Shown here: piece after piece, positions 3,407-31,898 of the stretch
Numbering within the stretch: position 1 is the stretch's first letter
How the letters are laid out: every line of letters begins with the position of its first letter
Origin: Thermophagus xiamenensis
Lineage (GTDB): Bacteria; Bacteroidota; Bacteroidia; Bacteroidales; Marinilabiliaceae
DNA: 64,000 nucleotides
Assembly (NCBI RefSeq): GCF_900112795.1
Contig: NZ_FONA01000009.1
Span: 1-64,000, forward strand
Reading direction: 5' to 3'
Position numbers and translations under genes: made by a program
Notes under the pieces: model-generated
What the model was told of the DNA's origin: nothing
The model's input: the letters and a program-made list of their open reading frames with translations, nothing else
The model's database searches: none

Positions 3407-4516
3407 TCATACTTTTATAAACACCCTCTTCTTGTATAGGAAATATCCAATAACCCAGAAAAAGAAGACATGTGTTAAAGCATAGAGCAACGAACCGTTC
3501 ATATTTCCTGCCAGAGGAACAAAAATATTTTCATAGAGCCAGGTGCTGCCACGCATAACGGTGCCATCGGCCAATTCAATCTTAATAATCATCCCCAAAG
3601 TACGGGCCCACAATCCTGACAAGGCATAAATAAACAAGGGATTCATCCCGAACACCACAAAAAACGAAGTCCACTTTTTATATCCCTTGATGTCGATAAT
3701 AAAAATCAACAGTGCAAAGGCCATGGCGGCCAGACCGGCAGTATAGAGCACATAAGAGCCGGTCCAGAGGGGTTTGTTGATGGGAAATACGAGGCCCCAC
3801 AATCGGCCGGCAATGGCAACAATAAGTCCATAGAGCGCCAGTTGGCCGGGAATTTTGACTTTTTCGGTAGTTTTGATAAATACACCGGTAAGATAACCTA
3901 ATAAAACTGTTACTACTGCAGGGATGGTACTCAGCAACCCTTCGGGATCGAAAGGAATACCAAAACCCCTGTAGAGATGTTGTTCGCCCAGAATGGCAGC
4001 ATCGAAAGGTATGGTTACATTACCGTTAAGACTGTACGGGTCCTCGCCGCCAAACCAACCCAATATCCCCCAGTAAAGTAATAGTATGGAAAAACCCAAC
4101 AAAGGAATATATTTTCGTGGCACCGAAAGAACAATTAAAGACCCAAAACCATAGGCCAGGGCTATCCGCTGCAGTACACCCATAATGCGCAGGGTGCTAT
4201 AGTCTCTGTCCCATTGAGGAAATGAATTCAGAAAAAGACCAATGGCGAAGATTAATAACGTTCTTCTTCCCAATCTCTTAAACGACTCTTTGTTAAGGGT
4301 ATTCCCATATTTGGAAAAAGAGAAAAACATGGAAACGCCTACCACAAACAGGAAAAAGGGAAAAACCAAATCGGTGGGGGTGCATCCGTGCCAGCTGGAA
4401 TGTCGTAAAGGCGCGTAAATATATTTCCAGCTGCCGGGGTTGTTGACAGTAATCATTAAAGCTATGGTCATACCCCGAAGCACATCCAGTGCCAGATATC
4501 GTTCTGTTTTCTTCAT
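3407..4516 (-). CDS. NagX-like heparan-alpha-glucosaminide N-acetyltransferase family membrane protein (DUF5009)
   Basis: The product is 369 residues with about ten hydrophobic segments. It starts MKKTERYLALDVLRGMTIAL, the signature of the DUF5009/YeiB-related acyltransferase group. The block LRHSSWHGCTPTDLVFPFFL matches the conserved loop of human HGSNAT and bacterial NagX that carries the active-site His in a membrane enzyme transferring acetyl from cytoplasmic acetyl-CoA to the amino group of terminal glucosamine on the other side of the membrane. It is the last gene of a minus-strand cluster of amino-sugar genes, 209 bp after the sodium symporter. In this setting it may re-acetylate glucosamine or act in uptake of GlcNAc oligomers. 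The exact substrate is inferred, not shown. Confidence 0.85.
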   Translation of the reverse strand: MKKTERYLALDVLRGMTIALMITVNNPGSWKYIYAPLRHSSWHGCTPTDLVFPFFLFVVGVSMFFSFSKYGNTLNKESFKRLGRRTLLIFAIGLFLNSFPQWDRDYSTLRIMGVLQRIALAYGFGSLIVLSVPRKYIPLLGFSILLLYWGILGWFGGEDPYSLNGNVTIPFDAAILGEQHLYRGFGIPFDPEGLLSTIPAVVTVLLGYLTGVFIKTTEKVKIPGQLALYGLIVAIAGRLWGLVFPINKPLWTGSYVLYTAGLAAMAFALLIFIIDIKGYKKWTSFFVVFGMNPLFIYALSGLWARTLGMIIKIELADGTVMRGSTWLYENIFVPLAGNMNGSLLYALTHVFFFWVIGYFLYKKRVFIKV

Positions 4517-4725: not shown

Positions 4726-6165
4726 TTAATCTACTTTCTTAGAAAAGGCCCAAAGCCCCAGGTAAACCAGAAGCCCGTTCAGAAGCAACAATTCGAAACC
4801 AAAGCGGTAACCACCAAACCACTCTTCAGAATTGCTACTCACGACATAACAGATGATCGGTGATAATACACTTATAAACGGAACAAAGCGGTCTCTCACC
4901 TTTCGCTTCGTCAAAATACCGAAGGTGAATAATCCCAGTAAGGGACCATAGGTATAACCTGCAGCGGTAAACACCGAGTTGACCACACTCTCATCGTTGA
5001 TAATCCGGAATAGTACAATGACCAAAAACATGATGAATGAAAAGGTCAGATGCACCCTGATTCTCTTTTTTTCTGTCGAGGGTTGCTTGGGATCCACATT
5101 CAGAAAGTCGATGCAAAAAGCGGTGGTGAGTGCTGTTAGTGATGAATCGGCACTGGAATAGGCAGCTGCGGTAATTCCCAACAGGAAGAAAACGCCCACG
5201 GCGGTGCCAAAATATTTGATGGCCAGCAGAGGAAACAGATCATCGGTACGTTCCGGCAGGGCTATACCCATCTGTTCCGCATAGTGGTAGAGCAACACTC
5301 CCAGCCCCAGAAACAGCAAGTTGGCAGCCACAAACGAAAAGCTGAACCAAAAAAGATTTTTTTGTGCTTCCTTAAGATTTTTGCACGTGAGATTTTTTTG
5401 CATCATATTTTGATCCAACCCGGTCATCACGATGGTAATGCCAATCCCGGCCAGAAACTGCTTGAAAAAGTTGGTGCCCGACTGCCAGTTCCAGTCGAAT
5501 ATTTTACTGTAAGGATGGTGAATAATTGTGGAAAATAAATCACCCGTATCCATATCCAGATGTTTGAGCATTACAATAATGGTTACCACCACCGAAAGAA
5601 GGATAAACAACGTTTGTAAAGTATCGGTCCATACCACGGTTTTGATGCCTGCTTTAAAGGTATAGAGCCAGATTAGAGTAATAGTGGTTAATACAGTAAC
5701 CCAGAAAGGAATACCCAAGGCATCAAAAAACGATATTTGAAGCACGCCCGCCACCAGATAAAGACGGAATGAAGCGCCGATGGTCTGCGATAACAGGAAA
5801 AAGAACGAACCGGTTTTGTAGGCGCGCAGACCAAACCTTTGATCCAGATAGGTGTATATGGAAACCAGGTTGCGACGGTAATAAAGCGGTAACAACACCA
5901 GTGCGATGACCCAGTATCCCACAAAATTGCCGAGGATAAACTGGAAATATCTCCAGGCACTGTTCCCCACCTCGCCCGGCACCGAAATAAAGGTGACACC
6001 AGAAATGGTGGCGCCAATCATTCCAAAAGCCACCAGATACCAGGGCGACTTGCGATTGCCGGTGAAAAAGGTTTCGCTGTTGCTGCCCCGCGACGAAAAC
6101 CACGATATCAGAAACAGCGCGGCAAAAAAACCAAGTATAACAATTAATACGAGTGTGGTGCTCAT
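4726..6165 (-). CDS. sodium:solute symporter (SSS family)
   Basis: The product is 479 residues with about 13 predicted membrane segments, the normal length for the family. It opens MSTTLVLIVILGFFAALFLI and has the SSS-typical block AFGMIGATISGVTFISVPGE near residues 47-66, and a central LAGIGITIVMTGLDQNMMQK region. SSS proteins import sugars, sialic acids, amino acids or vitamins with sodium across the inner membrane. Placement between a GHL10 glycosidase-like gene and a NagX-like acetyltransferase suggests an amino sugar or a muropeptide-derived sugar as cargo, but residues alone do not decide that. The upstream gap (6166-6346) holds a copy of the dispersed palindromic repeat. Confidence 0.93.
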   Translation of the reverse strand: MSTTLVLIVILGFFAALFLISWFSSRGSNSETFFTGNRKSPWYLVAFGMIGATISGVTFISVPGEVGNSAWRYFQFILGNFVGYWVIALVLLPLYYRRNLVSIYTYLDQRFGLRAYKTGSFFFLLSQTIGASFRLYLVAGVLQISFFDALGIPFWVTVLTTITLIWLYTFKAGIKTVVWTDTLQTLFILLSVVVTIIVMLKHLDMDTGDLFSTIIHHPYSKIFDWNWQSGTNFFKQFLAGIGITIVMTGLDQNMMQKNLTCKNLKEAQKNLFWFSFSFVAANLLFLGLGVLLYHYAEQMGIALPERTDDLFPLLAIKYFGTAVGVFFLLGITAAAYSSADSSLTALTTAFCIDFLNVDPKQPSTEKKRIRVHLTFSFIMFLVIVLFRIINDESVVNSVFTAAGYTYGPLLGLFTFGILTKRKVRDRFVPFISVLSPIICYVVSSNSEEWFGGYRFGFELLLLNGLLVYLGLWAFSKKVD

Positions 6166-6346: not shown

Positions 6347-7843
6347 TTAAAAAAATTGCGGTACAGACTCCATGTTGGTGGGGCTCAGTGCCAAAATTAC
6401 GAAATAGTACTTATCGGGGTTTGTCTCACGAGAAATCTTTATGGTACATTCATGTTCCCCTGTTATCAAAAAGATATTTTCCGGATTTTCGGTGTTTGCA
6501 GGTTTACCTTTCTTAAATTTATAAATCACAAAGGCACGGTTATTACGTCCCGGGTTCCAGGAAAGGTGAATGGTATTATCTTTAACCTCCATCTGCGTAT
6601 TTTGCGGAACACCTGAAGTTATTTGCTGTACACGCTGGTTAACAGGTGGAAGGGCTTCATACCGGAAGGGGCCTCTCAGTAATTTATCTTTAAGTTTTAA
6701 AGGATTGCTTCTAAGTGATTTGGCACTAAAAAACATGCTGCCGTCAATGTTTGGGATAGTACGGTTGAGCTGAATCTGCTTAATTATCTGCCGTGAGGAT
6801 CGCCATTGGCGGTCTTTGGCTTTACGATTGATGCGGTAGAAAGCCTGTCCGATATAGAGTCTACAGCCCAGGGCATTTTTACTCCACCAGTCGGCCAGGA
6901 TAGCATAATCGGCCACCTCTTTGCCTATGTGCCAGTAGAGCTGAGGTGTCACATAATCGATCCACCCCTCTTGCTGCCATCGCAAAATATTGGCATACAA
7001 ATCATCGTAGTTGGTCTGACCCGCTTTGGTTGCCGAACCGCGTGGATCGTCCGATTGATTGCGCCATACCCCGAAAGGACTGATTCCAAAAGCTACTGTG
7101 GGACGTACGGCTTTAATGGTATCATGCAACTGTTTGATGATCAGATCAACATTGTCTCTTCGCCAGTCTTCCTTTTGGTCGGGACTGAATCCGCGCGGAT
7201 ATTTTTCAAAAGCATCCTGGTCGGGAAATTCCTGACCTGCAATACGATAAGGGTAAAAATAATCATCGAAATGAAGCGCATCCACATCATATCGGCGTAA
7301 GAGGTCAGCCACAACAGCAGCCACATGGTTGCGTGTCTCCGGCAAACCGGGGTTAAAATAACGAGCCTTACCATAAGTAACAAACCATTCGGGATGCTGA
7401 TTTATGGGATGATTTTCTGCGATTGAAGCCTTGGCCGTATCTACCACTGCCCGGTATGGGTTGAGCCAAAGGTGCAACTCCAGTCCTCTCTTACGACATT
7501 CGTCAATGGCAAACTGTAACGGGTCGTAGAAAGGGTCAGGGGCTTTTCCCTGTTCTCCCGTAAGCCATTGCGACCAGGGCTCCATATCTGATGGGAAGAA
7601 GGCATCTGTAGCGGGTCTGACCTGAAAGATGACAGTGTTGAGATGATATTCTCTTGCCAGGTCCAGCAATTCAATCATCTCCTCTTTTTGCATATTGACC
7701 GATAATCCCGGTTTGGAAGGCCAATCGATGTTGGCCACAGTGGCGATCCAGACGGCCCGCATCTCGCGTTTGGGATAATTACGGGCCGATAGCGCCAAAG
7801 AAACCAAAAGTGCTACTATGATAAGAGTGGTTTTCCGAATCAT
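6347..7843 (-). CDS. GHL10 (DUF187) glycoside-hydrolase-like exported protein
   Basis: The product is 498 residues with a signal peptide (LIIVALLVSLALSARNYPKR). The GHL10 domain follows at about residues 25-340: REMRAVWIATVANIDWPSK, then YHLNTVIFQVRPATDAFFPS, LHLWLNPYRAV, LHFDDYFYPYRI and YVTPQLYWHIG, all hallmarks of this TIM-barrel family. An Fn3-like domain (IHLSWNPGRNNRAFVIYKF) forms the C-terminus. E. coli DigH/YddW of this family cleaves denuded peptidoglycan glycan strands, so a role in cutting MurNAc-GlcNAc chains fits a cluster with an amidase, an AmpG/MurT-like permease, murK and murQ. The acidic residues in FDDYFYP are likely catalytic or substrate-contacting. It lies 104 bp downstream of the permease gene. 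Confidence 0.9.
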   Translation of the reverse strand: MIRKTTLIIVALLVSLALSARNYPKREMRAVWIATVANIDWPSKPGLSVNMQKEEMIELLDLAREYHLNTVIFQVRPATDAFFPSDMEPWSQWLTGEQGKAPDPFYDPLQFAIDECRKRGLELHLWLNPYRAVVDTAKASIAENHPINQHPEWFVTYGKARYFNPGLPETRNHVAAVVADLLRRYDVDALHFDDYFYPYRIAGQEFPDQDAFEKYPRGFSPDQKEDWRRDNVDLIIKQLHDTIKAVRPTVAFGISPFGVWRNQSDDPRGSATKAGQTNYDDLYANILRWQQEGWIDYVTPQLYWHIGKEVADYAILADWWSKNALGCRLYIGQAFYRINRKAKDRQWRSSRQIIKQIQLNRTIPNIDGSMFFSAKSLRSNPLKLKDKLLRGPFRYEALPPVNQRVQQITSGVPQNTQMEVKDNTIHLSWNPGRNNRAFVIYKFKKGKPANTENPENIFLITGEHECTIKISRETNPDKYYFVILALSPTNMESVPQFF

Positions 7844-7947: not shown

Positions 7948-9804
7948 CTATTGACCATTCCCCCTTTCAGCCTTTTTAATGCCAAATTGGGGATCAATTT
8001 TCAGAAACTTAATGACAATGAATCCGGGAATGGTACAGATTAACACCCAAATAAAGAAATTCTGATATCCCACAATTTCCTGTATCCATCCTGAAATCAT
8101 GCCCGGAATCATCATGCCGAGAGCCATCAGGCCGGTACAAATGGCATAGTGGGCGGTTTTATGACTGCCTGCAGCAAAATAGATCATGTAAAGCATGTAT
8201 GCTGTAAAGCCAAATCCATAGCCGAACTGTTCCACCGCCACTGATGCAGATATGAGCCACATACTCTGAGGCGTGGCATAGGAAAGGTAGACATACATCA
8301 GGTTGGGAAGGTTCATGGCCAGAGCCATGGGCCAAATCCAGTATTTCAGTCCATTGCGCGATGCCACCCATCCGCCCAGAATGCCGCCAAGTGTTAAGGC
8401 AAGAATTCCTATGGTACCATAAATTAATCCCACATCTCCTGTGGTGAGGCCCAACCCGCCGGCTTCACGCGCATCCAGCATAAAGGGCGATGCCAGTTTC
8501 ACCAACTGAGATTCTCCCAGCCGGAACAACAACAGGAAGGCCAATGCAGAGCCTATATTCTTTTTGCGGAAGAACGATTTAAAAGTAATGAAAAACTCTT
8601 GAAAAAGACCTTCGTTGTTTTCCTGTACCGCCGGCTTATCGGTTGCCGGCCGTGGCAATATAAAACGGTGGTAAACAAAGAATATGAGAAATAATACAGT
8701 CAGAATAACAAAGGTGAGGCTCCAGGCCAGCGGAATTTTCCCGGAACGCCCTTCAAACCATGCGGCAGAAGCTCCTTGTAGCTTGGGGTCTAACTGAACC
8801 ACCAGCCAGGCGGTTTTATTCCAGTTTGACCGGTTCATAACAATGCGTTCCCCTACAACGAGGCTGATGCTTTCATCGCCCCGCCTAAAACCGGTATTCA
8901 ATATCACTTCCTGGTCCGGTTCGGGGGCGGCAGACAGTCGAAGTCCTACAAGAGCTACATTCCCCGGATGTAAAGAGGTTTCTACCGTTTGGTCACGACC
9001 AAAAAGATTCTTGAGTTGAGTTTTCAATGGACCGGAAATATGGTTGGTCCACCATCCACTCTCTTCTTTCTTTGATTCTTTAACCTCGGGAATCACAAAT
9101 CCATTGGCAAGATTTTGCTGTGCCGCCCACCTCTTTAGACTGTCAATAATTTCGGGTTCAACTTTTTGTGTGGAAACTTGAAGCTCATTGGCAGTTAAAA
9201 TGAATGTCAACTCATCATTCCCGTCGGTTTGACGAAATTCGGGAACATCAATCCGTGCAGGCAAATCGGGGCGTGCATGGACCGAAAACTCAACAGGTGG
9301 TAAACCGGTAGAGGTTTCAAAAAAGCCGGCCAAAATGATGAGCAGCCCCTGCCCCGTAATCATTGCGATGCGGTAAAACGTGCTTCTGATACCAATAAAC
9401 AAAGCTTGTTTGTGCTCGTCCAACGCCAGCATATAGAAGCCGTCGGCAGCAATATCATGTGTAGCCGAAGAAAATGCCAAAAGCCAAAAAAAGGCCAAAG
9501 TATATTTAAAAAAACCGGGTGCCGGAATCGTTAAAGCCACGCCGGCCAAACCCGCTCCCACCAATAGCTGCATGATTACAATCCACCATCGTTTGGTTTT
9601 TAACAGGTCCACCACGGGGCTCCACAAAGGTTTAATTACCCACGGCAGATACAGCCAGCTGGTATAAAGCGCTATATCGGCATTGGATATACCCAAACGT
9701 TTGTACATTATTACCGAAACGGTCATGACAATTACATAAGGAATACCTTGCGCAAAGTAGAGCGTAGGCACCCAACTCCAGGGGGAACGGTTGTTTTTAC
9801 CCAT
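7948..9804 (-). CDS. AmpG/MurT-like major facilitator permease with a large soluble insert
   Basis: The product is 618 residues. The N-terminal half matches AmpG-like permeases (LYFAQGIPYVIVMTVSVIM, then WVIKPLWSPVVDLLKTKRWW and SSATHDIAADGFYMLAL). AmpG imports anhydro-muropeptides, and the related MurT of Tannerella forsythia imports MurNAc. Unlike ordinary AmpG, about 190 residues (roughly 165-355) of hydrophilic sequence separate two membrane blocks. By topology after an even number of helices it could face the cytoplasm or the periplasm; I cannot settle which. The second half has the usual helices and ends in the cytoplasm. Neighbouring glycosidase and amidase genes, and murK-murQ across the divergent promoter, support a MurNAc or GlcNAc-MurNAc cargo. 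Confidence 0.88.
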   Translation of the reverse strand: MGKNNRSPWSWVPTLYFAQGIPYVIVMTVSVIMYKRLGISNADIALYTSWLYLPWVIKPLWSPVVDLLKTKRWWIVIMQLLVGAGLAGVALTIPAPGFFKYTLAFFWLLAFSSATHDIAADGFYMLALDEHKQALFIGIRSTFYRIAMITGQGLLIILAGFFETSTGLPPVEFSVHARPDLPARIDVPEFRQTDGNDELTFILTANELQVSTQKVEPEIIDSLKRWAAQQNLANGFVIPEVKESKKEESGWWTNHISGPLKTQLKNLFGRDQTVETSLHPGNVALVGLRLSAAPEPDQEVILNTGFRRGDESISLVVGERIVMNRSNWNKTAWLVVQLDPKLQGASAAWFEGRSGKIPLAWSLTFVILTVLFLIFFVYHRFILPRPATDKPAVQENNEGLFQEFFITFKSFFRKKNIGSALAFLLLFRLGESQLVKLASPFMLDAREAGGLGLTTGDVGLIYGTIGILALTLGGILGGWVASRNGLKYWIWPMALAMNLPNLMYVYLSYATPQSMWLISASVAVEQFGYGFGFTAYMLYMIYFAAGSHKTAHYAICTGLMALGMMIPGMISGWIQEIVGYQNFFIWVLICTIPGFIVIKFLKIDPQFGIKKAERGNGQ

Positions 9805-9908: not shown

Positions 9909-12377
9909 TTATAAACTTTTAAAATGATAACCGCGCTTTCGCAGCTCATCAATAATATCACCTAGATGCATGTAAAGCTTATCTTCACGATCTGGATGTA
10001 CGCCAGGGTGTATAAGAATGACAGCCCCATTTAAACCTTTTGTTTCCTCAAAATGCAAAAGGCGACCAATCAAAGCCTTACTGCTTTTATAGTTGCTCAT
10101 TTGAGGTGTAGTATAATCGGCATTGGTACCTACTCCGGGGGTAAAACAGACGACCTCCATATTCATTTCCCGGGTCCAATCAACAATTGGCTGATTATAC
10201 CATTCATAAGGCGGCAAAAACCAACGAACAGAATCTTTGCTAATACCCAATTGGGTAATGGCTTTTAAATTTTTCTCAAGATCTTTCCGAAAAGTCTTTT
10301 TTGTAATCAATAGCGAATCCCTTTTCCCCCAGTCGGCATACAATAAATGAGCATCGGAATGAGGACCAAGATAATGATTATCGGCAACTATTCTTTTTAT
10401 AACTTTTTGATTTTCTTTATTTCTCAGGCATCGGCCGGTAAGGAAAAATGAAGCTTTTACATTTTTTGCTGACAACACATTCAATATATGCGAGGCACCT
10501 TCAAAATGTTCATCAGCAGAAAAAATAAGATAAATGTTTGGAAAGGCCTTGTCAAAACCAATAACCGCACCATACTGGTCACGAACGACGCCGCTATACC
10601 CATCAGGATAAGCCTCCAATGATGATAAATAAAAAATCAAAGAGGCTGTTCCATCCATTGTAGGCTCATTGGTCGAATAATCACCTATATCGTCATGATA
10701 AACCGCTTTACCATTCTGAAAAATGGCATATTCGTCTTCTTCCAACAGGGTAACACCTCTTAAATTCTCAAATATTGACCGATAAACAGGGCCATCCACT
10801 AATCCGCCCAAGGTATTCTTTCCTAAAAGCAGGGGAAAAGCCGAATGGGGGTGGGTAGGTGAATCCTCAACACCCGGTAATCCACATATCATGGCGGTGC
10901 CCCAGGGATTGCATCCAAAGAGCCAGTCACGCAAGGCAGCTTCCAGCGTCGAGAATCTGTCATCTCCTGTTAATTCGTGATATAACCGGGCCTGGGAAAG
11001 GGCAGCTGCAACCAAATTGTTTGAACACCAAATAAACGGAACTCCCATACGGAATGGATCTGTCGCTGCTTCCCGCTCCAGGGCCATTAATCCCTCTCGC
11101 ATAAAAGCAATATACTTCTCTCTGGTTTCATCGTCAGCCTGTTTGGCCATTAAGTAGTGTCCAACATTTACAAAAGGATAAAACTGATAGTGCCTCGCAC
11201 CATGCAACTTCATCCAGGGGGTTACCGGTTCTACCTCTCCCCAAAAGTCAGCGGCATCAAGCCAATGCTTAAGGCTGTCGTTATCGGCTAATGCCAGAGA
11301 GGCAGCAGCCAGCTCCATGTCGTCAACATAGTTTTGTTCTTCATAAAAATAGGGCGATACATAACAAGCCGTTTGTGTAGCACCGGGAAACTGTTCTCCA
11401 AAACGGTAAGCCTCTTTGGCCTTTTTTAACAGTATTTCGGTCCATTCGGGATACTCATTTTTCAAAACTTTCGCCGCCAATGCAAAAGCGGAGGCAAACT
11501 TACCGGCAACCGATGCCACCCCGGTTGTACGGTTCCGATGTGGTCCCAACCCCTGAGGCAGGCCTGTCACATAATAAACCGGCCGGCCAAAAGGTACACC
11601 ATAGTCAACCGAATCCTTGTTAGGCAACCGAAACCCTGCATGATCGCGGTCATCAGCTATCTGATTGTACATCTCACCCGGTGCCGGGTTCATCCGCATG
11701 AGCCATTCCAATCCCCAGATCGCCTCATCCAGTACATCGGGCAAACCGTTGGCGCCCGGCTCCCCCCTTGAATCATATTGATCTTTAAAAACACCCGGAT
11801 TTTTGTGATAAGCAAATAACATTTGAAAAACAGCATTCGCCGATGTATTGGTGTATTGCAGGTAATCGGATGCATCGTGCCATCCGCCGTGAACATCTAT
11901 AGCCCGGCCCGAACGGGTTGGATGATCCACGATGGTTCCATCCTGAACGTGACAACTATCTTTCAGGAAAGGATTATAACCACATCTTTGTTGCCGCATG
12001 TAATGCAGCAAGAAATCAGCAGCCCCTTTAAATACGTCCGGTGCTATTTTAAATACCGGGGACTTATGACCACCAACTTCCAGATAATATTTCCCGGTTT
12101 TGTTGAAGTTCGAGAAATCCAGTCGAAAAGCCGTTTGCATTCCCCAGACAGAGCCATCTTCAACGGAAACATCTCCCTGATAAACAACCTCATCGTTTTG
12201 TACTGAACGAATTAAAAAAGAGCCGGCGGTTACGACCTCATCACTAATTAAGACCGCAATCTTAGATGTTTTTGGAAGGTACCCCAGCTGGTTTATTCTT
12301 ATCCATACACCGGCAGTGGCACTCCACACAAAAAACATGCTTAACAGAACAACAGTTAGTAACCTTCTCTTTTTCAT
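9909..12377 (-). CDS. exported GH9 glycosidase fused to a polysaccharide-deacetylase (NodB/CE4-like) domain
   Basis: The product is 822 residues with a signal peptide (residues 1-22). An Ig-like CelD_N domain (about 25-110) starts WIRINQLGYLPKTSKIAV. The GH9 catalytic domain (about 115-590) has GGWHDASDY (164-172; DASD replaces the usual DAGD pair), HPHSA (509-513) and DYSTNEPTMDGTASLIFYL with the likely acid Glu571. The deacetylase domain (about 605-822) has FSADE (619-623), HSDAH (673-677), LPPYEWYN and LIHPG. In classical NodB the first motif is TFDD; here the first Asp, the usual base, is Ala, while the metal-binding Asp and HxxxH remain. Some GH9 enzymes are exo-glucosaminidases, so the pair could deacetylate and then cleave GlcNAc oligomers. 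It is the first gene behind a well-formed promoter at 12432-12462. Confidence 0.9.
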   Translation of the reverse strand: MKKRRLLTVVLLSMFFVWSATAGVWIRINQLGYLPKTSKIAVLISDEVVTAGSFLIRSVQNDEVVYQGDVSVEDGSVWGMQTAFRLDFSNFNKTGKYYLEVGGHKSPVFKIAPDVFKGAADFLLHYMRQQRCGYNPFLKDSCHVQDGTIVDHPTRSGRAIDVHGGWHDASDYLQYTNTSANAVFQMLFAYHKNPGVFKDQYDSRGEPGANGLPDVLDEAIWGLEWLMRMNPAPGEMYNQIADDRDHAGFRLPNKDSVDYGVPFGRPVYYVTGLPQGLGPHRNRTTGVASVAGKFASAFALAAKVLKNEYPEWTEILLKKAKEAYRFGEQFPGATQTACYVSPYFYEEQNYVDDMELAAASLALADNDSLKHWLDAADFWGEVEPVTPWMKLHGARHYQFYPFVNVGHYLMAKQADDETREKYIAFMREGLMALEREAATDPFRMGVPFIWCSNNLVAAALSQARLYHELTGDDRFSTLEAALRDWLFGCNPWGTAMICGLPGVEDSPTHPHSAFPLLLGKNTLGGLVDGPVYRSIFENLRGVTLLEEDEYAIFQNGKAVYHDDIGDYSTNEPTMDGTASLIFYLSSLEAYPDGYSGVVRDQYGAVIGFDKAFPNIYLIFSADEHFEGASHILNVLSAKNVKASFFLTGRCLRNKENQKVIKRIVADNHYLGPHSDAHLLYADWGKRDSLLITKKTFRKDLEKNLKAITQLGISKDSVRWFLPPYEWYNQPIVDWTREMNMEVVCFTPGVGTNADYTTPQMSNYKSSKALIGRLLHFEETKGLNGAVILIHPGVHPDREDKLYMHLGDIIDELRKRGYHFKSL

Positions 12378-12481: not shown

Positions 12482-13816
12482 TTAATAGCGTTTTTCCAGG
12501 CGGGCACCCCGAAAATAGTGGAAAAGAATATCCTGATAAGAATACCCTTTAGCACCCATTACGGCCGCACCAATCTGACACAAACCTACCCCATGCCCCC
12601 AGCCGGCACCAATGAGCGTGAAGGTGGTTGGTAATTCCCCATTCTTCTGTTCTTTTTCAATGATAAATGCAGAACTATACAAATGCGATTCTGACAAAGC
12701 CTTTCGAATTTCCAGCTCTTTGCCAATGGTTAGTTCGCCTTTTGTTCCCACTATTTTCAACCGGATTAACCTACCGGACACCCCTCGTTCGACCGGTATT
12801 AAGTCAACAATTTCGCCCAAATCGAGATTGATTTTCTTTTTCAAAAGCTCTTGAATTTTCTCCTGAGTGAGCACGACCCGCCATCGGTAAAAATCAGAGG
12901 TCTCCTGGTCATAATCGTTCAACACTTGAGAAAGAATTTGCCGGTCATGAGTATTACAAAAAGCTGGCGGACTGTTCAAAATCCATTCACGAGCGGCCGC
13001 TTCACCGGTCAAATCCAAATTATACCCTTCAGGCAATTTATCATTATCGATAACTTTCGTAAGATAGGGATGCCCGACCGGCTCCCAGACATTCTCAAAG
13101 AGTTCGGATACACCACCGCATGACTTCGAGAAACGGGCATCACAAATTGTATCATTATAAACCAGAACCTGCCCAAATGTGTCGGCAATGGCAGATTCTA
13201 CCTCTTTTGTAGATGCCCTGGTAATACCCTGATAACGCTGACAATGGTCATCTGCACAAACATCAAAGTGAAGATGATCTTCACGGTCATACCACTTAAT
13301 TCTTTCTCCCGGTCTCTCTATTGTCGTTTCATAAGAGCCTTTTTCCTTCAACTTTTGTTCTTTCTCTTTTTGCGCCATAAGCCAACTACGAGAGATAACG
13401 GCATGCGCTCTTAATAACTGGGGCGATGAAGTAGCACTCATCTCGGATGAAATAACACTCACCAGATAATCTTCCAACGGCAAACAATTGACAGCCGTCA
13501 AATGATCTTCTTCGCGGATAATCCTCAACATCCCTTTAAAACGCTGATTCTCTTTTCGCTCCCAGTGAAAATTGATACCAATAACCACATCTTTCAACTC
13601 AAAGCTACACTTTTGATAGTTGACAGGTTCCAGTTCTGCGGGAAGTGAGGTGGCAATTTCTATATCGTTGATCCATAGCGTCCATTTATCATTTTTTAAA
13701 ACCGCTTTCCCCGGCCCTTTATAAATTTTGCCTGTAGCACGAAGCCGGTAAGGCCCTTCTAAGGTGAAGGAAAATTCCGGCGCCATCAACACGCCTACTT
13801 CTATATTTGGTTGCAT
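12482..13816 (-). CDS. SpoIID/LytB domain protein, apparently without a signal peptide
   Basis: I chose the ATG at 13816, giving 444 residues and a 4-bp gap to the DUF4922 stop at 13821; an upstream in-frame ATG at 13867 would overlap that gene by 47 bp. The SpoIID domain shows LPLEDYLVSVISSEM with the expected catalytic Glu, then LLRAHAVISRSWL, FSKSCGGVSELFENVWEP and GWGHGVGLCQIGAAVMGAKG near the C-terminus. SpoIID enzymes are lytic transglycosylases on glycan strands stripped of peptides. The N-terminus MQPNIEVGVLMAPEF has no signal peptide or membrane anchor, so either it is cytoplasmic and acts on imported chains, or its export is unconventional. It follows the DUF4922 and GT genes nearly without gaps. 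Confidence 0.9.
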   Translation of the reverse strand: MQPNIEVGVLMAPEFSFTLEGPYRLRATGKIYKGPGKAVLKNDKWTLWINDIEIATSLPAELEPVNYQKCSFELKDVVIGINFHWERKENQRFKGMLRIIREEDHLTAVNCLPLEDYLVSVISSEMSATSSPQLLRAHAVISRSWLMAQKEKEQKLKEKGSYETTIERPGERIKWYDREDHLHFDVCADDHCQRYQGITRASTKEVESAIADTFGQVLVYNDTICDARFSKSCGGVSELFENVWEPVGHPYLTKVIDNDKLPEGYNLDLTGEAAAREWILNSPPAFCNTHDRQILSQVLNDYDQETSDFYRWRVVLTQEKIQELLKKKINLDLGEIVDLIPVERGVSGRLIRLKIVGTKGELTIGKELEIRKALSESHLYSSAFIIEKEQKNGELPTTFTLIGAGWGHGVGLCQIGAAVMGAKGYSYQDILFHYFRGARLEKRY

Positions 13817-13820
13817 ATGA

Positions 13821-14783
13821 TTATACTTTAAAGATAAGTTGTACCTGCGTCCATGTGTCATCATCAAGGGTCACCTGATTAAAAATATCATTAATGGTAT
13901 CCGCATTTAATTTTTCAAAATCCTCTTCTCTGGGTGTAATCAAAACCCCACCAAAGTCGACAGAGGCGGGACTTAATAAAATCTGCTCGGCACCCTCGGC
14001 ATAGAACTGCCGGGGTCGATGTTCCCTGCGTGGAAACAGAAAAACTCTCCACAAATCACGTTCCCGGGAACAAAGGATATTAACCATAGGCTCAACTTCC
14101 ATGTGTTGAACCTTCCCAAGAAAAGTAAAAACCCGGGTGAACCATTTCAACAACATTTCTTCATCATCACTTTCAAAAACCAACGTTTTCCGAAGATAGT
14201 TCTCTATGGAAAAAACTTTAACCCTGTCCCGGTCCAGTAATTTAATTTTTCCGGGATGAGCTGATAATTCCTTCTCCACAGGCATAAAGCCTTTGTTGCC
14301 GGCCTGAAAGTGAAAGTGGTCAGGGGCACTGGCACCGCACCGTGGCCCATTATAGAAAATCACAAAGTCGGGAAGAGCACGAGCCAGGTTGAGCATATCT
14401 GTCAAACGGCCTTCAATTCGTTGATCTATATGGTCTTTATGAGGAATGGTCAGGTGCCTTGTAAAGATGGGAAAAGGATTGACCAAAATTGTATAATCTC
14501 CAAAACCGATACCTCTTTGTTGAACAGGAAGGTTTTCAGAACACAAAAAACATTTACGTTGCCGAATCGATTGCTCATCCACTTTGGCTGCCGAAGAGCG
14601 TATGCGGGCCGGATTAAACTGAATACGCATTGTCGTTGCGGGGGCAACCTCTAAAACCCGGGTTTTAACGCTGCTCAATCCCTGATAATTATCGCGTGCA
14701 AGGGGCCAGTTGATTAATTGCTCGTCGATCAGTTTATGGACGCCTTCCTGAAAATCTATGTTCATAGTCAATTTATTGCTCAT
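13821..14783 (-). CDS. DUF4922 protein, HIT-superfamily nucleotidyl-transferase/phosphorylase-like
   Basis: The product is 320 residues. Conserved points are RKCFLCSENLPVQQRG (a possible metal-binding CxxC), VNPFPIFTRHLTIPHKDH and the histidine motif SAPDHFHFQAGNKGF. HxHxQ is the active-site pattern of the GDP-galactose phosphorylase and Ap4A phosphorylase branch of the HIT superfamily, where the His forms a nucleotidyl intermediate. The physiological substrate of DUF4922 is not known to me. Its ATG overlaps the stop of the glycosyltransferase gene (ATGA), and its own stop is 4 bp before the SpoIID start, so the three are very likely co-translated. It may make or break a nucleotide-activated sugar used by the GT. 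Confidence 0.85.
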   Translation of the reverse strand: MSNKLTMNIDFQEGVHKLIDEQLINWPLARDNYQGLSSVKTRVLEVAPATTMRIQFNPARIRSSAAKVDEQSIRQRKCFLCSENLPVQQRGIGFGDYTILVNPFPIFTRHLTIPHKDHIDQRIEGRLTDMLNLARALPDFVIFYNGPRCGASAPDHFHFQAGNKGFMPVEKELSAHPGKIKLLDRDRVKVFSIENYLRKTLVFESDDEEMLLKWFTRVFTFLGKVQHMEVEPMVNILCSRERDLWRVFLFPRREHRPRQFYAEGAEQILLSPASVDFGGVLITPREEDFEKLNADTINDIFNQVTLDDDTWTQVQLIFKV

Positions 14784-16255
14784 TGGTTTCTTTTGTTTTT
14801 TTCAATTCGCGCCCATAACTCCATAGTTCTCACCTTATCTTTGTAAAAATTGTGCTGATTCATTTTAACGATATCCAAAGAGGCATCGGAATTGTCTTCC
14901 CACCTCCGGCATAAATAAAGTGGTTTATAAATTCTTCCTATTTGATAATCTCTGGAAACAGCCAACCCAACAGCATAATCTTCACCATAACTAACATTGG
15001 GAACCTTAATGCCGCGCAAAACGGGGGTATAGAAAGCCCGTGGGGCACCAAGGCCATTGATGCGAAGAGCATTGTTACGACCATTATCGGGGGTCCACTC
15101 TTTATGGTCAATAAGTCCGGGGGGGATTTCCTCCAGCTTAAAATTAACCATGCGATAGGTACCGACCACCATGGCACAATTTTGTTCGTAAAAAGCATCG
15201 ACAATGGTTTGTAAAACATTCTCATCGGCATAAAGGTCATCGCTATCCAGCTGAACAGCAAACTTTCCGCAAGCATCATGCATGATGGCCAGATTCCAAC
15301 ACCCCCCTATGCCGAGGTCGGTTCTGTCGGGAATAATATGTATCAACCGGGAATCCTCCTTTGACAGCCTCTCGAGAATATCGGTGGTTCCGTCATTAGA
15401 ATGGTTATCCACCACAATCAGGTTGAACTTAAAGTCAGGCTTTTGACTAAAAACTGACCTTACAGCATCTTCTATGGTCTTAACACGATTTTGAACAGGG
15501 ATAATAACCGAGGCCTCTACGGGAAAATCCGACTCTCCAAACTCAACGGTTTTAAATTGCGGTTCCAAATATGCACCAATATCTTTCAGATGTTGTGTGC
15601 AGGCTTTTTCCATTTCAATTTGTGCATCCCTGTTTTTGGGATCTACATAATCAAAGATTTTTTCCCCTGACCTGCGTGTATCGGTTTCCATTTCGGTATA
15701 GAGATATTCCGGTAAATGGAAAAGCTTATATTGTTGAGATATTTTTAGTCGCAAGTCATACAAGCCGGCAAACCGAAATTCTTCCTCCATTTTGTTGGCT
15801 GCCTGACAAAATGCCGATGCTGAAAAAAGCAGTAATGAACCAAAATCGAAATCATCGCGCAAACTGCCATCCTGATACTCGATAACCGGATGGTTGGTCA
15901 CTTTTCCCTCTTTTATAGCAAAAGAATCGGAATATACCATTCCCGCACCGGTAAACTGAGCGGCCTGAATCATACGTTCCAAAGAAAAAGGCCCAATTTT
16001 CAGGGGTAAAGTTTTAGTATATAATAATACATAATCCACCTCCATGGCATGTTGAGCAATTTGCTTAACCATGTCAGTAGAGTTCATCGCCGCTATCGGG
16101 AAAGAATTGACTCCCTCCGGCAGGGAAGAAGCCCTGTTATCGGACGTTTCCATAACGTAAATGAAGGAAATTGCATTAGTGTCTTTTAATTCCTGAATGG
16201 TACGATTTAAATCGGCTTCCGGTGCTACCGGTAAAAAACATGCAAGTTTGTTCAT
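14780..16255 (-). CDS. family 2 glycosyltransferase with an N-terminal extension
   Basis: The product is 491 residues. The C-terminal GT2 domain (about 235-480) begins ASVIIPVQNRVKTIEDAV and has LIVVDNHSNDGTTDILERL and the nucleotide-sugar/metal motif QLDSDDLYADENVL, then SYGEDYAVGLAVSRDY with the probable base region. The N-terminal 230 residues (MNKLACFLPVAPEADLNRTI) look like a second, degenerate GT-like or nucleotidyltransferase-like fold. No membrane segment or signal peptide is visible, so it should act in the cytoplasm. It overlaps DUF4922 by 4 bp. The product glycan is unknown; a synthetic enzyme in a catabolic cluster is unusual. Confidence 0.85.
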   Translation of the reverse strand: MNKLACFLPVAPEADLNRTIQELKDTNAISFIYVMETSDNRASSLPEGVNSFPIAAMNSTDMVKQIAQHAMEVDYVLLYTKTLPLKIGPFSLERMIQAAQFTGAGMVYSDSFAIKEGKVTNHPVIEYQDGSLRDDFDFGSLLLFSASAFCQAANKMEEEFRFAGLYDLRLKISQQYKLFHLPEYLYTEMETDTRRSGEKIFDYVDPKNRDAQIEMEKACTQHLKDIGAYLEPQFKTVEFGESDFPVEASVIIPVQNRVKTIEDAVRSVFSQKPDFKFNLIVVDNHSNDGTTDILERLSKEDSRLIHIIPDRTDLGIGGCWNLAIMHDACGKFAVQLDSDDLYADENVLQTIVDAFYEQNCAMVVGTYRMVNFKLEEIPPGLIDHKEWTPDNGRNNALRINGLGAPRAFYTPVLRGIKVPNVSYGEDYAVGLAVSRDYQIGRIYKPLYLCRRWEDNSDASLDIVKMNQHNFYKDKVRTMELWARIEKNKRNQ

Positions 16256-16306: not shown

Positions 16307-19300
16307 TTAATCTCTTCCGAAAAACATTAAAATATCTTTCATTAATTGGTTCTGCTCATTTCTATTAGTTATCGTTTCGAAAGGAAAACCCAGGACAACG
16401 CATTTATAATTACCGGAATAGGCCACTCCGGCACTCACTTTACCGGCGGCATAACGATAAATTCGGAATGCTCCATCTCCTGATGGCTCTATACCATCGG
16501 GTGCTTCCACTTTATAAAGATAAGGATGATATTGAGCATTATAGCTTACTTTCCGAAAAAATGGTTTGGCCTGGTCGGTTACCATCAAAGCGCCGGTATT
16601 ATCGGCATGATTAGTCATCCAGCGGTAATGCAAAACATTTTTTGCAAAATCAATGGCTGCACTATCATTATTCTCAACGATATCGGTACCAATATAGGCT
16701 CCCGAAATAAAAATGTTTCCTCCCCGGTCCAGATACCTTTTTATGGAAGAACGAGTGGAAGGCGTAAGAACCCGGAAATCTTTTTTGGATTGGCTGAACA
16801 AGGATGGTGTACCTCTTTCTTCACCATAAATAACATCTATGGCAAAATAGGGTGTGACATCAAAGTCATGGCACCCGAATCTTTCATCACTTACCGAAAC
16901 AAAAGAGTAACCGGCATCTCTAATTGCCCGTCCGTGTTCAAAAACAAAATCACGATGATTGCCGGGAATAATTTTACCCTCCATATCGGCGAAACTGGCC
17001 CCGTGTCCCGGACTGTCATCATCGAGCCACACAGAAGAACGATGATAGTCATATTGATTTCCGGTATGACTAAAATCTTTGTTCCACGGTACGCCTTCGT
17101 CGTCCCACCAGGCTACTCCTGCCGCCTCACCCTCAACAAAAGCAGGCGGAGCTACACGATCGAAGCCATTAACCACCAACACCAACCCTTTTGAATCTTT
17201 ATCGACAGATACGGCAAGAGTTTCGCCCGGGAAACTGCGCCCTCCTTCGTTTACCGCTCTAACCCTAAAGCTGTAAATGGTATTGTATTCTTCCAGCTCC
17301 ACAATCAAAAAAGTATCTCTGGTGAAAACCCCATTCCCGAATCCGTTATCTTCAATGCGACGATAAACCAGGTAGCCGGTTGGAATAGCAGAAGGCTCTA
17401 AGGGATCAGACACCGGACTCCAGCTAATTTTAACTTTCTTATCACCGACAACTTCTATAGCCATATTTTGGGGTGCAAGGGGTTTGATTACTACCGGTCT
17501 GTTTTCACGAGCAGCTAAAAACCGTGCCATCCCCTTGTATATGGCTCTTGCAACCGTAAATTGAAACCGCGGATCTAAGCCAAATTTCATATCCGCTAAA
17601 TTTTGATGCGACAAAAGCTCAAGCAGCATGGTGGGAACATTGGGGCGCCACGCTTCGGAATATTGTTTGTCCCACATGGCTCTACGTGTCCATTGCGGAT
17701 TAAAAGTAAGTCGGATATCAGAGACTATCTGGCTTTGAACCAAATCAGTAAGGTCCCGGCCGGCCAGTCTTGAAGTTCCATCGGGGAATAGTCCATTATT
17801 ACGAACGCTGCTATAAATACCGAGTGTTCCGATAACGGAATCATTGGGGGTAGTACCGGCGTCGGTATGAAAAGCAAAGGCCAGATCAATGGGGATGTTG
17901 AGTCCTTCAGCTTCCGGATTTCCTGTTGGTCCATTGGGATTTCCCATTAAGAAATTGACCCATTCACCACGTGACTGATAGTCGTCGTTATAATCGTTTT
18001 TATTATTGTTGAGGCTATAAACGATAGAGTCAGGCATCCCTGCATATTGCAGCCAGTAACGGGCTCCCTCCATCCATCGCGGTTTTCCGCTAAGTTTATA
18101 GCCATATGGCTCGGCGTTGAATTTAAAAGGTTCAGCAACAGGGTTCTTACCGTTATTAAGTGACCATTGGCGAGGGATGTATTCTTTATTGGGTTTTCGG
18201 GCCACATTACCCATTCCGCCGCCAAATCGTACAGCATCGGCAGAGATAGTACCGGTTGCATTATCGGGGACAGCCAGAATAACCGAACCTATGTCCGGAT
18301 TCTTACCTGTTTTAAAATGAAAGGTTCCGATATATATCCAGGTCCCGTAACCCATTTGCTGATTCAAAAGGAATCGCGTCTGTCCACCCGTATGATATAC
18401 AGTACAGGGAACATTAGGAAGAGCCTTTTCTTCCTTTCCCCAGGAAACATAAACGGCATAATCACCACTTTCAGGGATATCAGGGATATATTTCAACATT
18501 CCCGAACTTCCGGGATGCACATCCATTTTTAGGTAAGAACCGATAAGGAATGGATTTTCACCTTCAAAAAGTGTATCCTTAGCGGCGAACCCTTTTGGCA
18601 TTTTTATCCAGGAAGCATCTTCATTATTGATTATCATCTCGCTATCACCGGACGAGCCGTCGTTATCAACAATCACCTCGTGAGGTTGCGTATCTCTCTC
18701 CCTGGGCAAGAAAACGGTGGCTCCGGCATCTTCGAGCATGGGAACCAGAAAATTTTGTGTAAAGTTAAAAGGATAAAGATCTTCAACAGTCCCAAATAAC
18801 CGCGCCCGCTGCCACTCCCACCGATCTAGCTCAGCTTCGTAATAGTATCCATGACTGGGCCAAAGGGCAATATTATTTTTAGTAAGGCCTTTTTCAAATT
18901 CTAAGGCTGAAAGATTGGTGACTATGGGCGTGCGGAATTTGTCGTGTTTTAATCTTAATGAATCGGGTATTCCTTTATAATAATATAGAGGAATAAAATC
19001 CTCCAGAGGTCGCCCTTTGCAAAAAAGTTCGATATCATAATTTCTAAACCTCCTCCTAAGTTTCTTTTTTATATTTAATGTCAACTCTTTAATCCAGGCA
19101 TGCCTTATGGGAATCCGGGTTACATGGGGGGAAAGATGAATTTCTACAACACGTTTATCCGGATTGACAAAAACCGAATCGACCTCCATTCGCCCTAAAT
19201 AATTCCATCCATGAAATAAATCGGATACCGAAGCCAGATCATCACGAACCTTATTTAAAAAACTAAGTTCTTTAGAAGTAATTTGCGCACTTGTTTGGTC

Positions 19301-19375
19301 AATGGGATATGCCAAAACCAAAAGGAGCACTATATTAAAAAGCAATGTTTGGATATTGTAATTATTCTTTTTCAT
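16307..19375 (-). CDS. exported N-acetylmuramoyl-L-alanine amidase-like protein with golvesin-type and Fn3 domains
   Basis: The product is 1022 residues with a signal peptide (ends near QTSAQ, about residue 31). An amidase_3-like zinc site is spread over the protein: SHG with His175, Glu198 in TVEDLYPF, His503 in AFAFHTDAGTT, and the likely catalytic Glu586 in PTMLLELLSHQN. The large stretch between (about 255-395) is a golvesin C-terminal-like beta domain (SGDYAVYVSWGKEEK...GTWIYIGTFHF). An Fn3 domain follows (about 640-735), then a flavodoxin/ThuA-like C-terminus. Database relatives are often called xanthan lyase, but the zinc-site layout favours peptide-amide cleavage on muropeptides. It is the first gene of the minus-strand cluster, 51 bp before the GT gene, and is preceded by an excellent promoter. 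Confidence 0.82.
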   Translation of the reverse strand: MKKNNYNIQTLLFNIVLLLVLAYPIDQTSAQITSKELSFLNKVRDDLASVSDLFHGWNYLGRMEVDSVFVNPDKRVVEIHLSPHVTRIPIRHAWIKELTLNIKKKLRRRFRNYDIELFCKGRPLEDFIPLYYYKGIPDSLRLKHDKFRTPIVTNLSALEFEKGLTKNNIALWPSHGYYYEAELDRWEWQRARLFGTVEDLYPFNFTQNFLVPMLEDAGATVFLPRERDTQPHEVIVDNDGSSGDSEMIINNEDASWIKMPKGFAAKDTLFEGENPFLIGSYLKMDVHPGSSGMLKYIPDIPESGDYAVYVSWGKEEKALPNVPCTVYHTGGQTRFLLNQQMGYGTWIYIGTFHFKTGKNPDIGSVILAVPDNATGTISADAVRFGGGMGNVARKPNKEYIPRQWSLNNGKNPVAEPFKFNAEPYGYKLSGKPRWMEGARYWLQYAGMPDSIVYSLNNNKNDYNDDYQSRGEWVNFLMGNPNGPTGNPEAEGLNIPIDLAFAFHTDAGTTPNDSVIGTLGIYSSVRNNGLFPDGTSRLAGRDLTDLVQSQIVSDIRLTFNPQWTRRAMWDKQYSEAWRPNVPTMLLELLSHQNLADMKFGLDPRFQFTVARAIYKGMARFLAARENRPVVIKPLAPQNMAIEVVGDKKVKISWSPVSDPLEPSAIPTGYLVYRRIEDNGFGNGVFTRDTFLIVELEEYNTIYSFRVRAVNEGGRSFPGETLAVSVDKDSKGLVLVVNGFDRVAPPAFVEGEAAGVAWWDDEGVPWNKDFSHTGNQYDYHRSSVWLDDDSPGHGASFADMEGKIIPGNHRDFVFEHGRAIRDAGYSFVSVSDERFGCHDFDVTPYFAIDVIYGEERGTPSLFSQSKKDFRVLTPSTRSSIKRYLDRGGNIFISGAYIGTDIVENNDSAAIDFAKNVLHYRWMTNHADNTGALMVTDQAKPFFRKVSYNAQYHPYLYKVEAPDGIEPSGDGAFRIYRYAAGKVSAGVAYSGNYKCVVLGFPFETITNRNEQNQLMKDILMFFGRD

Positions 19376-19766: not shown

Positions 19767-20606
19767 ATGATACTGATAGCCGACAGTGGATCAACAAAGA
19801 CCACCTGGTGTATGCTGAATGCAAAAACGGGGGAAACAGAATACCTCAAGACCCGAGGCATTAATCCCTATTACCAGGATCATGATACCATATTAAAAAC
19901 ATTGGAAGAGGACTTTACAGGCGCCCAACGTCAATTCGAGACCATTTATTTTTATGGTGCAGGATGTGCCAATACGGAAATAAATCAAACGGCCAGGGAA
20001 GCCTTAAGTTGTTTCTTCCAGGCCAAGCAGATAGAAATTACCAGTGACCTAATGGCCGCCGCTCATGCGCTATGTGGCGAAGAAGAAGGTATTGCATGCA
20101 TTCTGGGCACCGGTTCCAACTCGTGTTACTACGACGGCTCCAAGATTTCAGCCAATGTATCGCCCCTCGGATTCATATTGGGGGATGAGGGTAGCGGTGC
20201 TGTCATAGGAAAAAAACTTTTGGCCGACATACTCAAAAAACAATTGCCACAAGATATCATTGAATTATTTTTCAATACTTATAAAACAGATGCGGCCCAA
20301 ATTCTTCATCATATTTACAAGCAGCCTTTCCCCAATCGATATGCAGCAGGCTTTACTCATTTCATTTCAGAACACATTTCTTATCCGGCATTACGCCAAT
20401 TGGTTAAAACATCTTTTGATGAATTTTTGAAGCGAAATGTAATGCAATATGAAAAAGCCGGACAATTACCAATCCATTTCGTTGGTAGCATTGCCTGGCA
20501 TTTTAAGGAAATATTAAAAGAAAGTCTTATCGAAAACAATTTAAAACCTGGGAAAATCATAAAAGATCCCATGCCTGGATTAATAAAATACCACTCAAAC
20601 CATTAA
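19767..20606 (+). CDS. murK: MurNAc/GlcNAc kinase, BadF/BadG/BcrA/BcrD ATPase family
   Basis: The product is 279 residues, the usual length. The ASKHA-fold ATP-binding motifs are visible: LIADSGSTKTTWCMLNAKTG at the N-terminus (phosphate 1), ACILGTGSNSCYYDG (phosphate 2) and ILGDEGSGAVIGKKLL. In this family the product phosphorylates the 6-hydroxyl of N-acetylglucosamine or N-acetylmuramate in the cytoplasm. The gene is 49 bp upstream of murQ on the same strand, which is the arrangement of murK-murQ in Tannerella forsythia, and that supports MurNAc as substrate over GlcNAc alone. An AmpG/MurT-like permease is on the divergent strand. The family call is firm; the substrate is an inference from context. 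Confidence 0.88.
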   Translation: MILIADSGSTKTTWCMLNAKTGETEYLKTRGINPYYQDHDTILKTLEEDFTGAQRQFETIYFYGAGCANTEINQTAREALSCFFQAKQIEITSDLMAAAHALCGEEEGIACILGTGSNSCYYDGSKISANVSPLGFILGDEGSGAVIGKKLLADILKKQLPQDIIELFFNTYKTDAAQILHHIYKQPFPNRYAAGFTHFISEHISYPALRQLVKTSFDEFLKRNVMQYEKAGQLPIHFVGSIAWHFKEILKESLIENNLKPGKIIKDPMPGLIKYHSNH

Positions 20607-20655: not shown

Positions 20656-21486
20656 ATGTCTGAAACAAGCAAATTCACCCTTAGTATTACGGAATCACCT
20701 TCCAGATTTAAAAATTTGGAGAAAATGGAAGTTGCTGACCTTATTAAGAGCATTAATGAAGAAGATGCCAAAGTTCATATCGCGGTTCGGAAAGCGCTTC
20801 CGCAAATAGAACAATTAATTGTTCGGATTATAGAGAGGATGAGACAAGGGGGGCGTGTCTTTTATTTAGGTGCTGGGACAAGCGGCCGACTGGGCGTACT
20901 GGATGCCTCAGAGCTACCTCCAACATTTGGTGTTCCCGACACATTGGTAATAGGTCTTATCGCAGGGGGAGATGTAGCATTAAGAAAAGCCGTAGAAAAT
21001 GCTGAAGATGACCCCCACATGGCCTGGAAAGAATTACAGGCACATAACATCAATCAATTAGATACTGTAATAGGCATAGCTGCGTCCGGCACCACACCGT
21101 ACGTTATAGGCGGCATAAAAAATGCCAGAGAAAACGGGATACTTACCGGATGTATAACTTGTAATCCCAACTCAGAAATAGCCAAAGTGGCAGAATACCC
21201 CATCGAAGCTATTGTTGGTCCGGAATTTATCACCGGAAGTACTCGCCTCAAAGCCGGAACCGCTCAAAAAATGATTCTCAACATGATCACCACTACCCTA
21301 ATGATAAAACTAGGCAAAGTTAAGGGTAACAAAATGGTAAACATGCAACTAAACAACAAAAAGCTCATTAACAGAGGAACACGCATGCTTATGGAAGAAT
21401 TGAAGCTGGACAAAGAAAGCGCTCGCCAATTATTGATGCGTTATGGCTCAGTCAAAAAAGCTATTGATGAATATAAAAAGGAATAG
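20656..21486 (+). CDS. murQ: N-acetylmuramic acid 6-phosphate etherase
   Basis: The product is 276 residues, slightly shorter than E. coli MurQ. It shows the SIS-fold signature RVFYLGAGTSGRLGVLDASE followed by LPPTFG; the Glu of DASE is the expected catalytic acid, and a second acidic site lies in KAVENAEDDPHMAW. Further conserved blocks are IGIAASGTTPYVIGGI and TGSTRLKAGTAQKMILNMI. It splits the lactyl ether of MurNAc-6-P to give GlcNAc-6-P and D-lactate in the cytoplasm. It follows murK directly and feeds the NagB-PIG-L protein encoded 0.9 kb downstream. The gene ends 23 bp from the stop of the convergent GntR gene. Confidence 0.97.
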   Translation: MSETSKFTLSITESPSRFKNLEKMEVADLIKSINEEDAKVHIAVRKALPQIEQLIVRIIERMRQGGRVFYLGAGTSGRLGVLDASELPPTFGVPDTLVIGLIAGGDVALRKAVENAEDDPHMAWKELQAHNINQLDTVIGIAASGTTPYVIGGIKNARENGILTGCITCNPNSEIAKVAEYPIEAIVGPEFITGSTRLKAGTAQKMILNMITTTLMIKLGKVKGNKMVNMQLNNKKLINRGTRMLMEELKLDKESARQLLMRYGSVKKAIDEYKKE

Positions 21487-30036: not shown

Positions 30037-30060
30037 ATTAAATTATAATAGATCATAATT

Positions 30061-31821: not shown

Positions 31822-31838
31822 AAATTCCTCAACAAACT

Positions 31839-31884
31839 AAAACTTCCTTGTCAGCTATATATTTATGGTTGATAGGGAAGTTTT
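31839..31884 (+). terminator. intergenic hairpin between susD-like and GH43 genes
   Basis: AAAACTTCC (31839-31847) pairs with GGAAGTTTT (31876-31884), extended by TTGTCA/TTGATA with mismatches. The tail is TTTTAAAATC, so the T-run is short. It may act as a partial terminator or as a 3'-end stabiliser that lets susCD mRNA exceed GH43 mRNA. Confidence 0.5.
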
Positions 31885-31898
31885 AAAATCAAATTATT

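Follow-up and report, generated by a model that had tools for sequence, protein, structure and literature searches.

Among the closest described counterparts of the locus analyzed here are two groups of enzymes and one type of gene cluster. GH9 exo-glucosaminidases are known that cut (GlcN)2 but not (GlcNAc)2 (PMC6096475). In the CE4 deacetylases, as reviewed, motif 1 supplies the base and a metal ligand, the motif-2 histidines bind the metal, the motif-3 arginine holds the base aspartate, and motifs 4 and 5 form an Asp-His relay; BaCE4 and PdaA act as MurNAc deacetylases, and CE4 pseudoenzymes have also been described (PMC10967932). In Tannerella forsythia, AmpG, MurT, MurK and MurQ are encoded in one cluster (PMC7670621). 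NagX, which is distantly related to TfMurT, has been proposed to acetylate periplasmic glucosamine (PMC9007349). We found no description of a GH9-CE4 fusion in peptidoglycan recycling in the open-access papers searched.

Such a fusion is encoded in the window, that is, the whole stretch of 64,000 nt of Thermophagus xiamenensis DNA that was analyzed (contig NZ_FONA01000009.1). A minus-strand ORF with an ATG start encodes a predicted exported protein of 822 aa, in which a signal peptide is followed by CelD_N, GH9 and a C-terminal NodB-like domain:

9909..12377, minus strand: GH9-NodB fusion gene (ORF, Pfam)
12312..12377, minus strand: signal peptide, residues 1-22 (by eye; the structure model has a helix at 2-17)
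12063..12311, minus strand: CelD_N Ig-like domain, residues 23-105 (Pfam E 3.5e-20, above cut-off)
10629..12026, minus strand: GH9 catalytic domain, residues 118-583 (Pfam Glyco_hydro_9 E 3.2e-64, above cut-off)
9912..10538, minus strand: NodB-like domain, residues 614-822 (Pfam and structure model, pLDDT 91)

The profile scores were 218.3 bits for PF00759 (GH9; cut-off 27.7) and 51.8 bits for PF01522 (CE4/NodB; cut-off 23.1). The Polysacc_deac_1 match covers residues 626-743 (E 9.9e-14, above cut-off) and begins at profile position 19, so that the motif-1 part of the protein lies outside the match. The full fusion protein matches only itself in its own genome (E <= 0.001), which also contains a second, distant GH9 and three further PF01522 matches. 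A scan of genome contigs yielded 542 candidate stretches with relatives, and the best 80 of these were retained. Because all 80 are full-length fusions that align across most of the 822 residues with 48-71% identity, the fusion is not a chance event. Most of these 80 are labeled Bacteroidota, and the others Ignavibacteria, Caldithrix, Latescibacterota, Marinimicrobia and a planctomycete MAG. The ORF, the Pfam matches and the full-length relatives thus confirm the claim of the first-pass annotation that a GH9 and a deacetylase-like domain reside on one chain, and all motifs that it had quoted were located (D168-A-S-D171, E571, F619-S-A-D-E623, H673-S-D-A-H677 and L788-I-H-P-G792). The GH9-NodB arrangement is real and conserved, and probably functional. 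The residue counts given below refer to an alignment of 81 sequences, the window protein plus the best 80 of the 542 relatives.

The GH9 residues proposed earlier to be catalytic were found in 81/81 sequences:

11865..11876, minus strand: DASD, D168-D171, the GH9 base and water-binding aspartates (D168 and D171 invariant in 81)
10665..10667, minus strand: E571, the GH9 general acid (invariant in 81)

A grouping of this domain with the known exo-glucosaminidases is not supported, as endoglucanase-type GH9s are closer both by sequence and by fold: they provide the best sequence matches, and in a Foldseek search endoglucanase 3x17 was nearest (TMt 0.81), with the GH9 glucosaminidases at 0.67-0.69. 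PBPRA0520 and VC0615 (5dgq, 6gdt) resemble the window protein in the GH9 fold, the N-terminal Ig-like domain, the catalytic Asp and Glu residues and the amino-sugar context, but the sequence similarity reaches an E of only about 1e-9, and their TMt of 0.67-0.69 compares with 0.81 for 3x17. Moreover, VC0615 has been described as consisting of two domains only (Fn3 and barrel) and has no NodB domain, which the window protein adds. The endoglucanase matches would be expected if the GH9 domain were a conventional beta-1,4-glucanase that acts on glucan from plants or the diet and only incidentally lies in a peptidoglycan neighborhood. However, where the matched endoglucanases have PHHR, the window protein has PHSA, and the coupling to the NodB domain is constant.

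The NodB-like domain combines retained with replaced residues:

10509..10523, minus strand: altered motif 1, F619-S-A-D-E623 (alignment to relatives and to BaCE4/PdaA)
10500..10502, minus strand: E626, candidate substitute ligand or base (alignment; acidic family-wide bar one, D46/E33/N1)
10347..10361, minus strand: motif 2, H673-S-D-A-H677, metal-binding His pair (both His in 81/81)
10203..10205, minus strand: E725 in motif 3, PPYEW, replacing the Gly of RPPYG (invariant in 81)
10116..10118, minus strand: D754, motif-4 Asp, with DW written DY (81/81)
10008..10010, minus strand: H790, motif-5 catalytic His (81/81)
9987..9989, minus strand: R797 after motif 5 (GT-x3-RTDKFY), possible substrate contact (invariant in 81)

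The alignment to BaCE4/PdaA (2j13, 1ny1) is ungapped across motif 1 and places S620 at the position of the base Asp and A621 at that of the second Asp; D622 and E623 fall one and two residues after the canonical positions. Throughout the 81 sequences, with few exceptions, motif 1 follows the pattern F[TSP][AG][HDA][ED]xx[DE]G, and none of the 80 readable sequences has an Asp at either canonical position. The motif-3 Arg is likewise missing from all 81, position 721 being invariably Leu, Ile, Met or Val (L721 in the window protein), and T756, Y763 and G792 are further invariant NodB residues. The metal His pair and the Asp-His relay are therefore kept, while the base, the third ligand and the Arg are all replaced together. 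The first-pass annotation had noted that the usual TFDD is altered with loss of the canonical Asp; the alteration is confirmed, but both motif-1 Asp positions are in fact changed, as is the motif-3 Arg. A loss by the window gene itself is not what the alignment revealed, as the change is common to the whole family. Decay of motif 1 in the window gene alone was ruled out, the change being family-wide with other residues invariant. By this conservation pattern the domain is an old, constrained variant and not a product of decay, because the motif-1 and motif-3 changes occur family-wide while H673, H677, E725, D754 and H790 are invariant.

The structure model, with a pLDDT of 90.6 for the full protein and 91.3 for the NodB domain, placed this domain nearest to Bc1960 (4l1g), BA3943 and PdaA-type deacetylases (1ny1) in a Foldseek search, with TMq values of 0.74-0.77 for the peptidoglycan deacetylases Bc1960 and PdaA (0.76 for 4l1g). 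In a profile search of the domain, the MurNAc deacetylases BaCE4/PdaA ranked first. The motif-2 His pair, the motif-4 Asp and the motif-5 His are common to the window domain and PdaA/BaCE4 (1ny1, 2j13); in contrast, the window domain lacks the motif-1 Asp and the motif-3 Arg, has Glu725 where motif 3 normally has Gly, and scores only 67 bits against a PdaA cut-off of 298. The CE4 pseudoenzymes BA3943 (6hm9, 7bkf) and BA0150 (4m1b), which share the NodB fold and have an altered motif 1, are among the top structural matches. The domain could accordingly be a catalytically dead, sugar-binding pseudoenzyme that places GH9, as the sole enzyme, on peptidoglycan, and the family-wide absence of both motif-1 Asp residues and the motif-3 Arg would agree with this. 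Yet, unlike BA3943 and BA0150, the window family has invariant motif-2, -4 and -5 residues together with new invariant residues, among them the motif-3 Glu; the acid pair would be superfluous for a mere binding module, and some genes encode the NodB variant by itself, with no GH9 in the vicinity. We consider a dead domain rather unlikely.

Our preferred reading, which we hold tentatively and at slightly less than an even chance, is that of an exported two-domain cell-wall salvage enzyme that combines a GH9 hydrolase with a re-wired NodB deacetylase. The GH9 domain would hydrolyze the beta-1,4 bond beside an amino sugar of a peptidoglycan-derived glycan, and the C-terminal NodB variant would de-N-acetylate the GlcNAc or MurNAc side by re-wired chemistry, such that one chain would hold both activities on one substrate. 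H673 and H677 would bind the metal together with a carboxylate that stands in for the lost ligand (E725, E626 or D622/E623), and one of these carboxylates would take over from the missing motif-1 base. PPY would still form the oxyanion hole, and H790 and D754 the acid pair. Judged by sequence, E725 or the acids E626/E623 may thus substitute for the missing motif-1 residues. We infer the substrate, the NodB activity, the substituting carboxylate and the order of the steps. This reading has to contend with the absence of the canonical base Asp, metal Asp and motif-3 Arg, and with a GH9 domain that is nearer to the endoglucanase type.

The genes around the fusion gene bear on the substrate:

3407..4516, minus strand: NagX/HGSNAT-type transmembrane protein (below NagX cut-off)
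4726..6165, minus strand: sodium:solute symporter, SSF (Pfam)
6347..7843, minus strand: GHL10 family glycosidase (Pfam)
7948..9804, minus strand: AmpG-like muropeptide permease with a large insert (profile match)
12482..13867, minus strand: SpoIID/LytB-domain protein (profile match)
13821..14783, minus strand: DUF4922 (Ap4A phosphorylase-like) protein (Pfam)
14780..16255, minus strand: GT2 glycosyltransferase (Pfam)
16307..19375, minus strand: Golvesin_C and fn3 protein (an HxDA motif, seen by eye only, is amidase-like)
19767..20606, plus strand: BadF/NagK-type sugar kinase, MurK-like, divergent
20656..21486, plus strand: MurQ, N-acetylmuramic acid 6-phosphate etherase (above cut-off)
22426..24369, plus strand: fusion of a glucosamine-6-phosphate deaminase-like and a PIG-L domain

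On the strand of the fusion gene, the AmpG-like, GHL10, SSF and NagX-type genes lie downstream and the SpoIID/LytB, DUF4922, GT2 and Golvesin_C genes upstream; the kinase and MurQ genes are divergent to it. The insert of the AmpG-like permease comprises about 190 residues between the two MFS halves. The DUF4922 and GT2 genes lie within the salvage cluster in many relatives, too. Farther away, at 26839-33563, a SusC/SusD pair and an arabinan endo-arabinosidase form a separate polysaccharide locus.

The recycling cluster of T. forsythia (Tanf_08345-08385) is comparable in that AmpG, MurT, MurK and MurQ are grouped (PMC7670621); the window cluster adds the GH9-NodB gene, whereas in a T. forsythia record (L099) the GH9-NodB gene belongs to another locus, with SusC/SusD. 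MurQ, MurK/NagK-like kinase, AmpG, SpoIID/LytB, GHL10, SSF, NagX/MurT-type, NamZ and NlpC genes were counted as salvage-type. At least two of them lie near the fusion gene in 24 of the 80 relatives (best 80 of 542); of the 51 relatives for which 15 kb or more is available, 21 have at least two salvage genes nearby; the other 30 have fewer, which speaks against the preferred reading. The neighbor block recurs in relatives, some of which add NamZ, NlpC/P60 or an enolase-superfamily protein, and a cluster of the same order (MurQ, kinase, AmpG, SpoIID, GHL10) was found in several genera. Co-occurrence with NamZ proved uninformative as a test of the peptidoglycan link, NamZ being present in 286 of the 296 sampled Bacteroidota genomes. 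In many Bacteroides the fusion gene is solitary, as might be expected of an ordinary glucanase; the same-order cluster speaks against that reading, which we regard as quite improbable. An amino-sugar or peptidoglycan substrate fits the gene neighborhood, and peptidoglycan amino-sugar processing is the likeliest role of the fusion protein because its gene sits among salvage genes here and in 24 of the 80 relatives.

The order "deacetylate, then cleave glucosamine", suggested by the first-pass annotation, remains a plausible proposal for the fusion protein. In a fuller version, the NodB domain would deacetylate a terminal GlcNAc, GH9 would then remove GlcN as an exo-glucosaminidase, and the NagX-type neighbor would re-acetylate it. 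The motif that we take to carry the acetyl-carrier His of HGSNAT/NagX is readable in the NagX-type protein of the window and in 9 of the 10 listed neighbors, and the activity on (GlcN)2 but not (GlcNAc)2 and the proposed acetylation by NagX (PMC6096475; PMC9007349) would agree with this sequence of steps. However, the GH9 domain is not close to the Vibrio and Photobacterium glucosaminidases, the NagX-type protein scores under the NagX cut-off, and the pathway would spend acetyl-CoA. In addition, the role of this neighbor is ambiguous because NagX is a proposed acetyltransferase and yet is related to the MurNAc transporter TfMurT. We rate this three-step pathway as rather doubtful; it is a narrower form of the two-domain salvage enzyme preferred above, and the two confidences overlap.

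Beyond the in-frame fusions, a phylum-wide search found the NodB variant in 34 of 296 genomes, in several of them as a separate ORF. Some of these ORFs adjoin GH9, once in the order NodB-GH9 (L141), and others stand alone. GH9 genes at L008 and G032:C33:5901-7625 are 52-54% identical to the window protein and end before the NodB domain, and genome G032 holds both a NodB-less GH9 gene and a GH9-NodB fusion. In Sphingobacteriaceae, a family assignment based on one member whose compared region is identical to that of Anseongella, 66 of 201 genomes have the NodB variant.

At 35 Sphingobacteriaceae loci (L137, L140, L143, L146, L180-L202 and L204-L211), NodB is encoded in the -1 frame after GH9, with overlapping frames. 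Each of the 35 carries a slippery heptamer in frame at the GH9 end (A_AAA_AAG in 28, A_AAA_AAA in 7), compared with a background of 14 per 21,084 codons elsewhere in GH9-NodB genes. GGAGG occurs within the 30 nt before the heptamer at 24 of the 35 loci (background 2.3%); all 24 belong to the A_AAA_AAG class (24/28), and the 7 loci with long A-runs have none. In 19 of the 35 it is found exactly 10 nt upstream of the heptamer (background 0.13%). A 10 nt spacing of a stimulatory Shine-Dalgarno sequence has been reported (PMC5009743). The downstream stem-loop score at the 35 junctions had a mean z of -0.81 against mononucleotide shuffles, with 7 of 35 below -2. An independent start of the -1 NodB frame is unlikely, no ATG, GTG or TTG preceding the domain in 28 of 35. 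At a cut-off of 90% GH9 identity, 32 representatives were left, and the arrangement is therefore not one sequencing error; several of the loci come from single-contig genomes. The A-runs of L154 and L173, two relatives with the fusion in frame, are lengthened, and a tree of 65 rows needs 9 changes of arrangement. The 35 loci look like cases of programmed -1 frameshifting; the class with long A-runs may use transcriptional slippage instead. The junctions resemble dnaX in A_AAA_AAG and the Shine-Dalgarno-like sequence 10 nt upstream, but here the outcome of the frameshift would be a secreted glycosidase extended by another enzyme domain. No report of a conserved GH9-NodB frameshift was found in the literature searched. 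The window gene is an in-frame fusion that has no need of such an event; the candidate frameshift was seen in the Sphingobacteriaceae relatives.

Taken together, in-frame fusions, adjoining genes in either order and frameshift-joined genes support well the proposed functional link of the two domains. A broader account is possible, although we lean against it: a NodB subfamily whose catalytic carboxylate has moved (to the Glu after PPY) would be coupled to GH9 for peptidoglycan amino-sugar salvage, and a dnaX-like -1 frameshift would yield GH9 alone and the fusion from one gene in Sphingobacteriaceae. If the NodB domain is active, a deacetylase of the CE4 fold would be working without the aspartates and the arginine that are regarded as the hallmarks of its mechanism, and cell-wall recycling would gain a link to GH9, which is known as a family of cellulases. 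If the frameshift is confirmed, recoding would be conserved here and would determine in what proportion the two linked enzyme domains are made.
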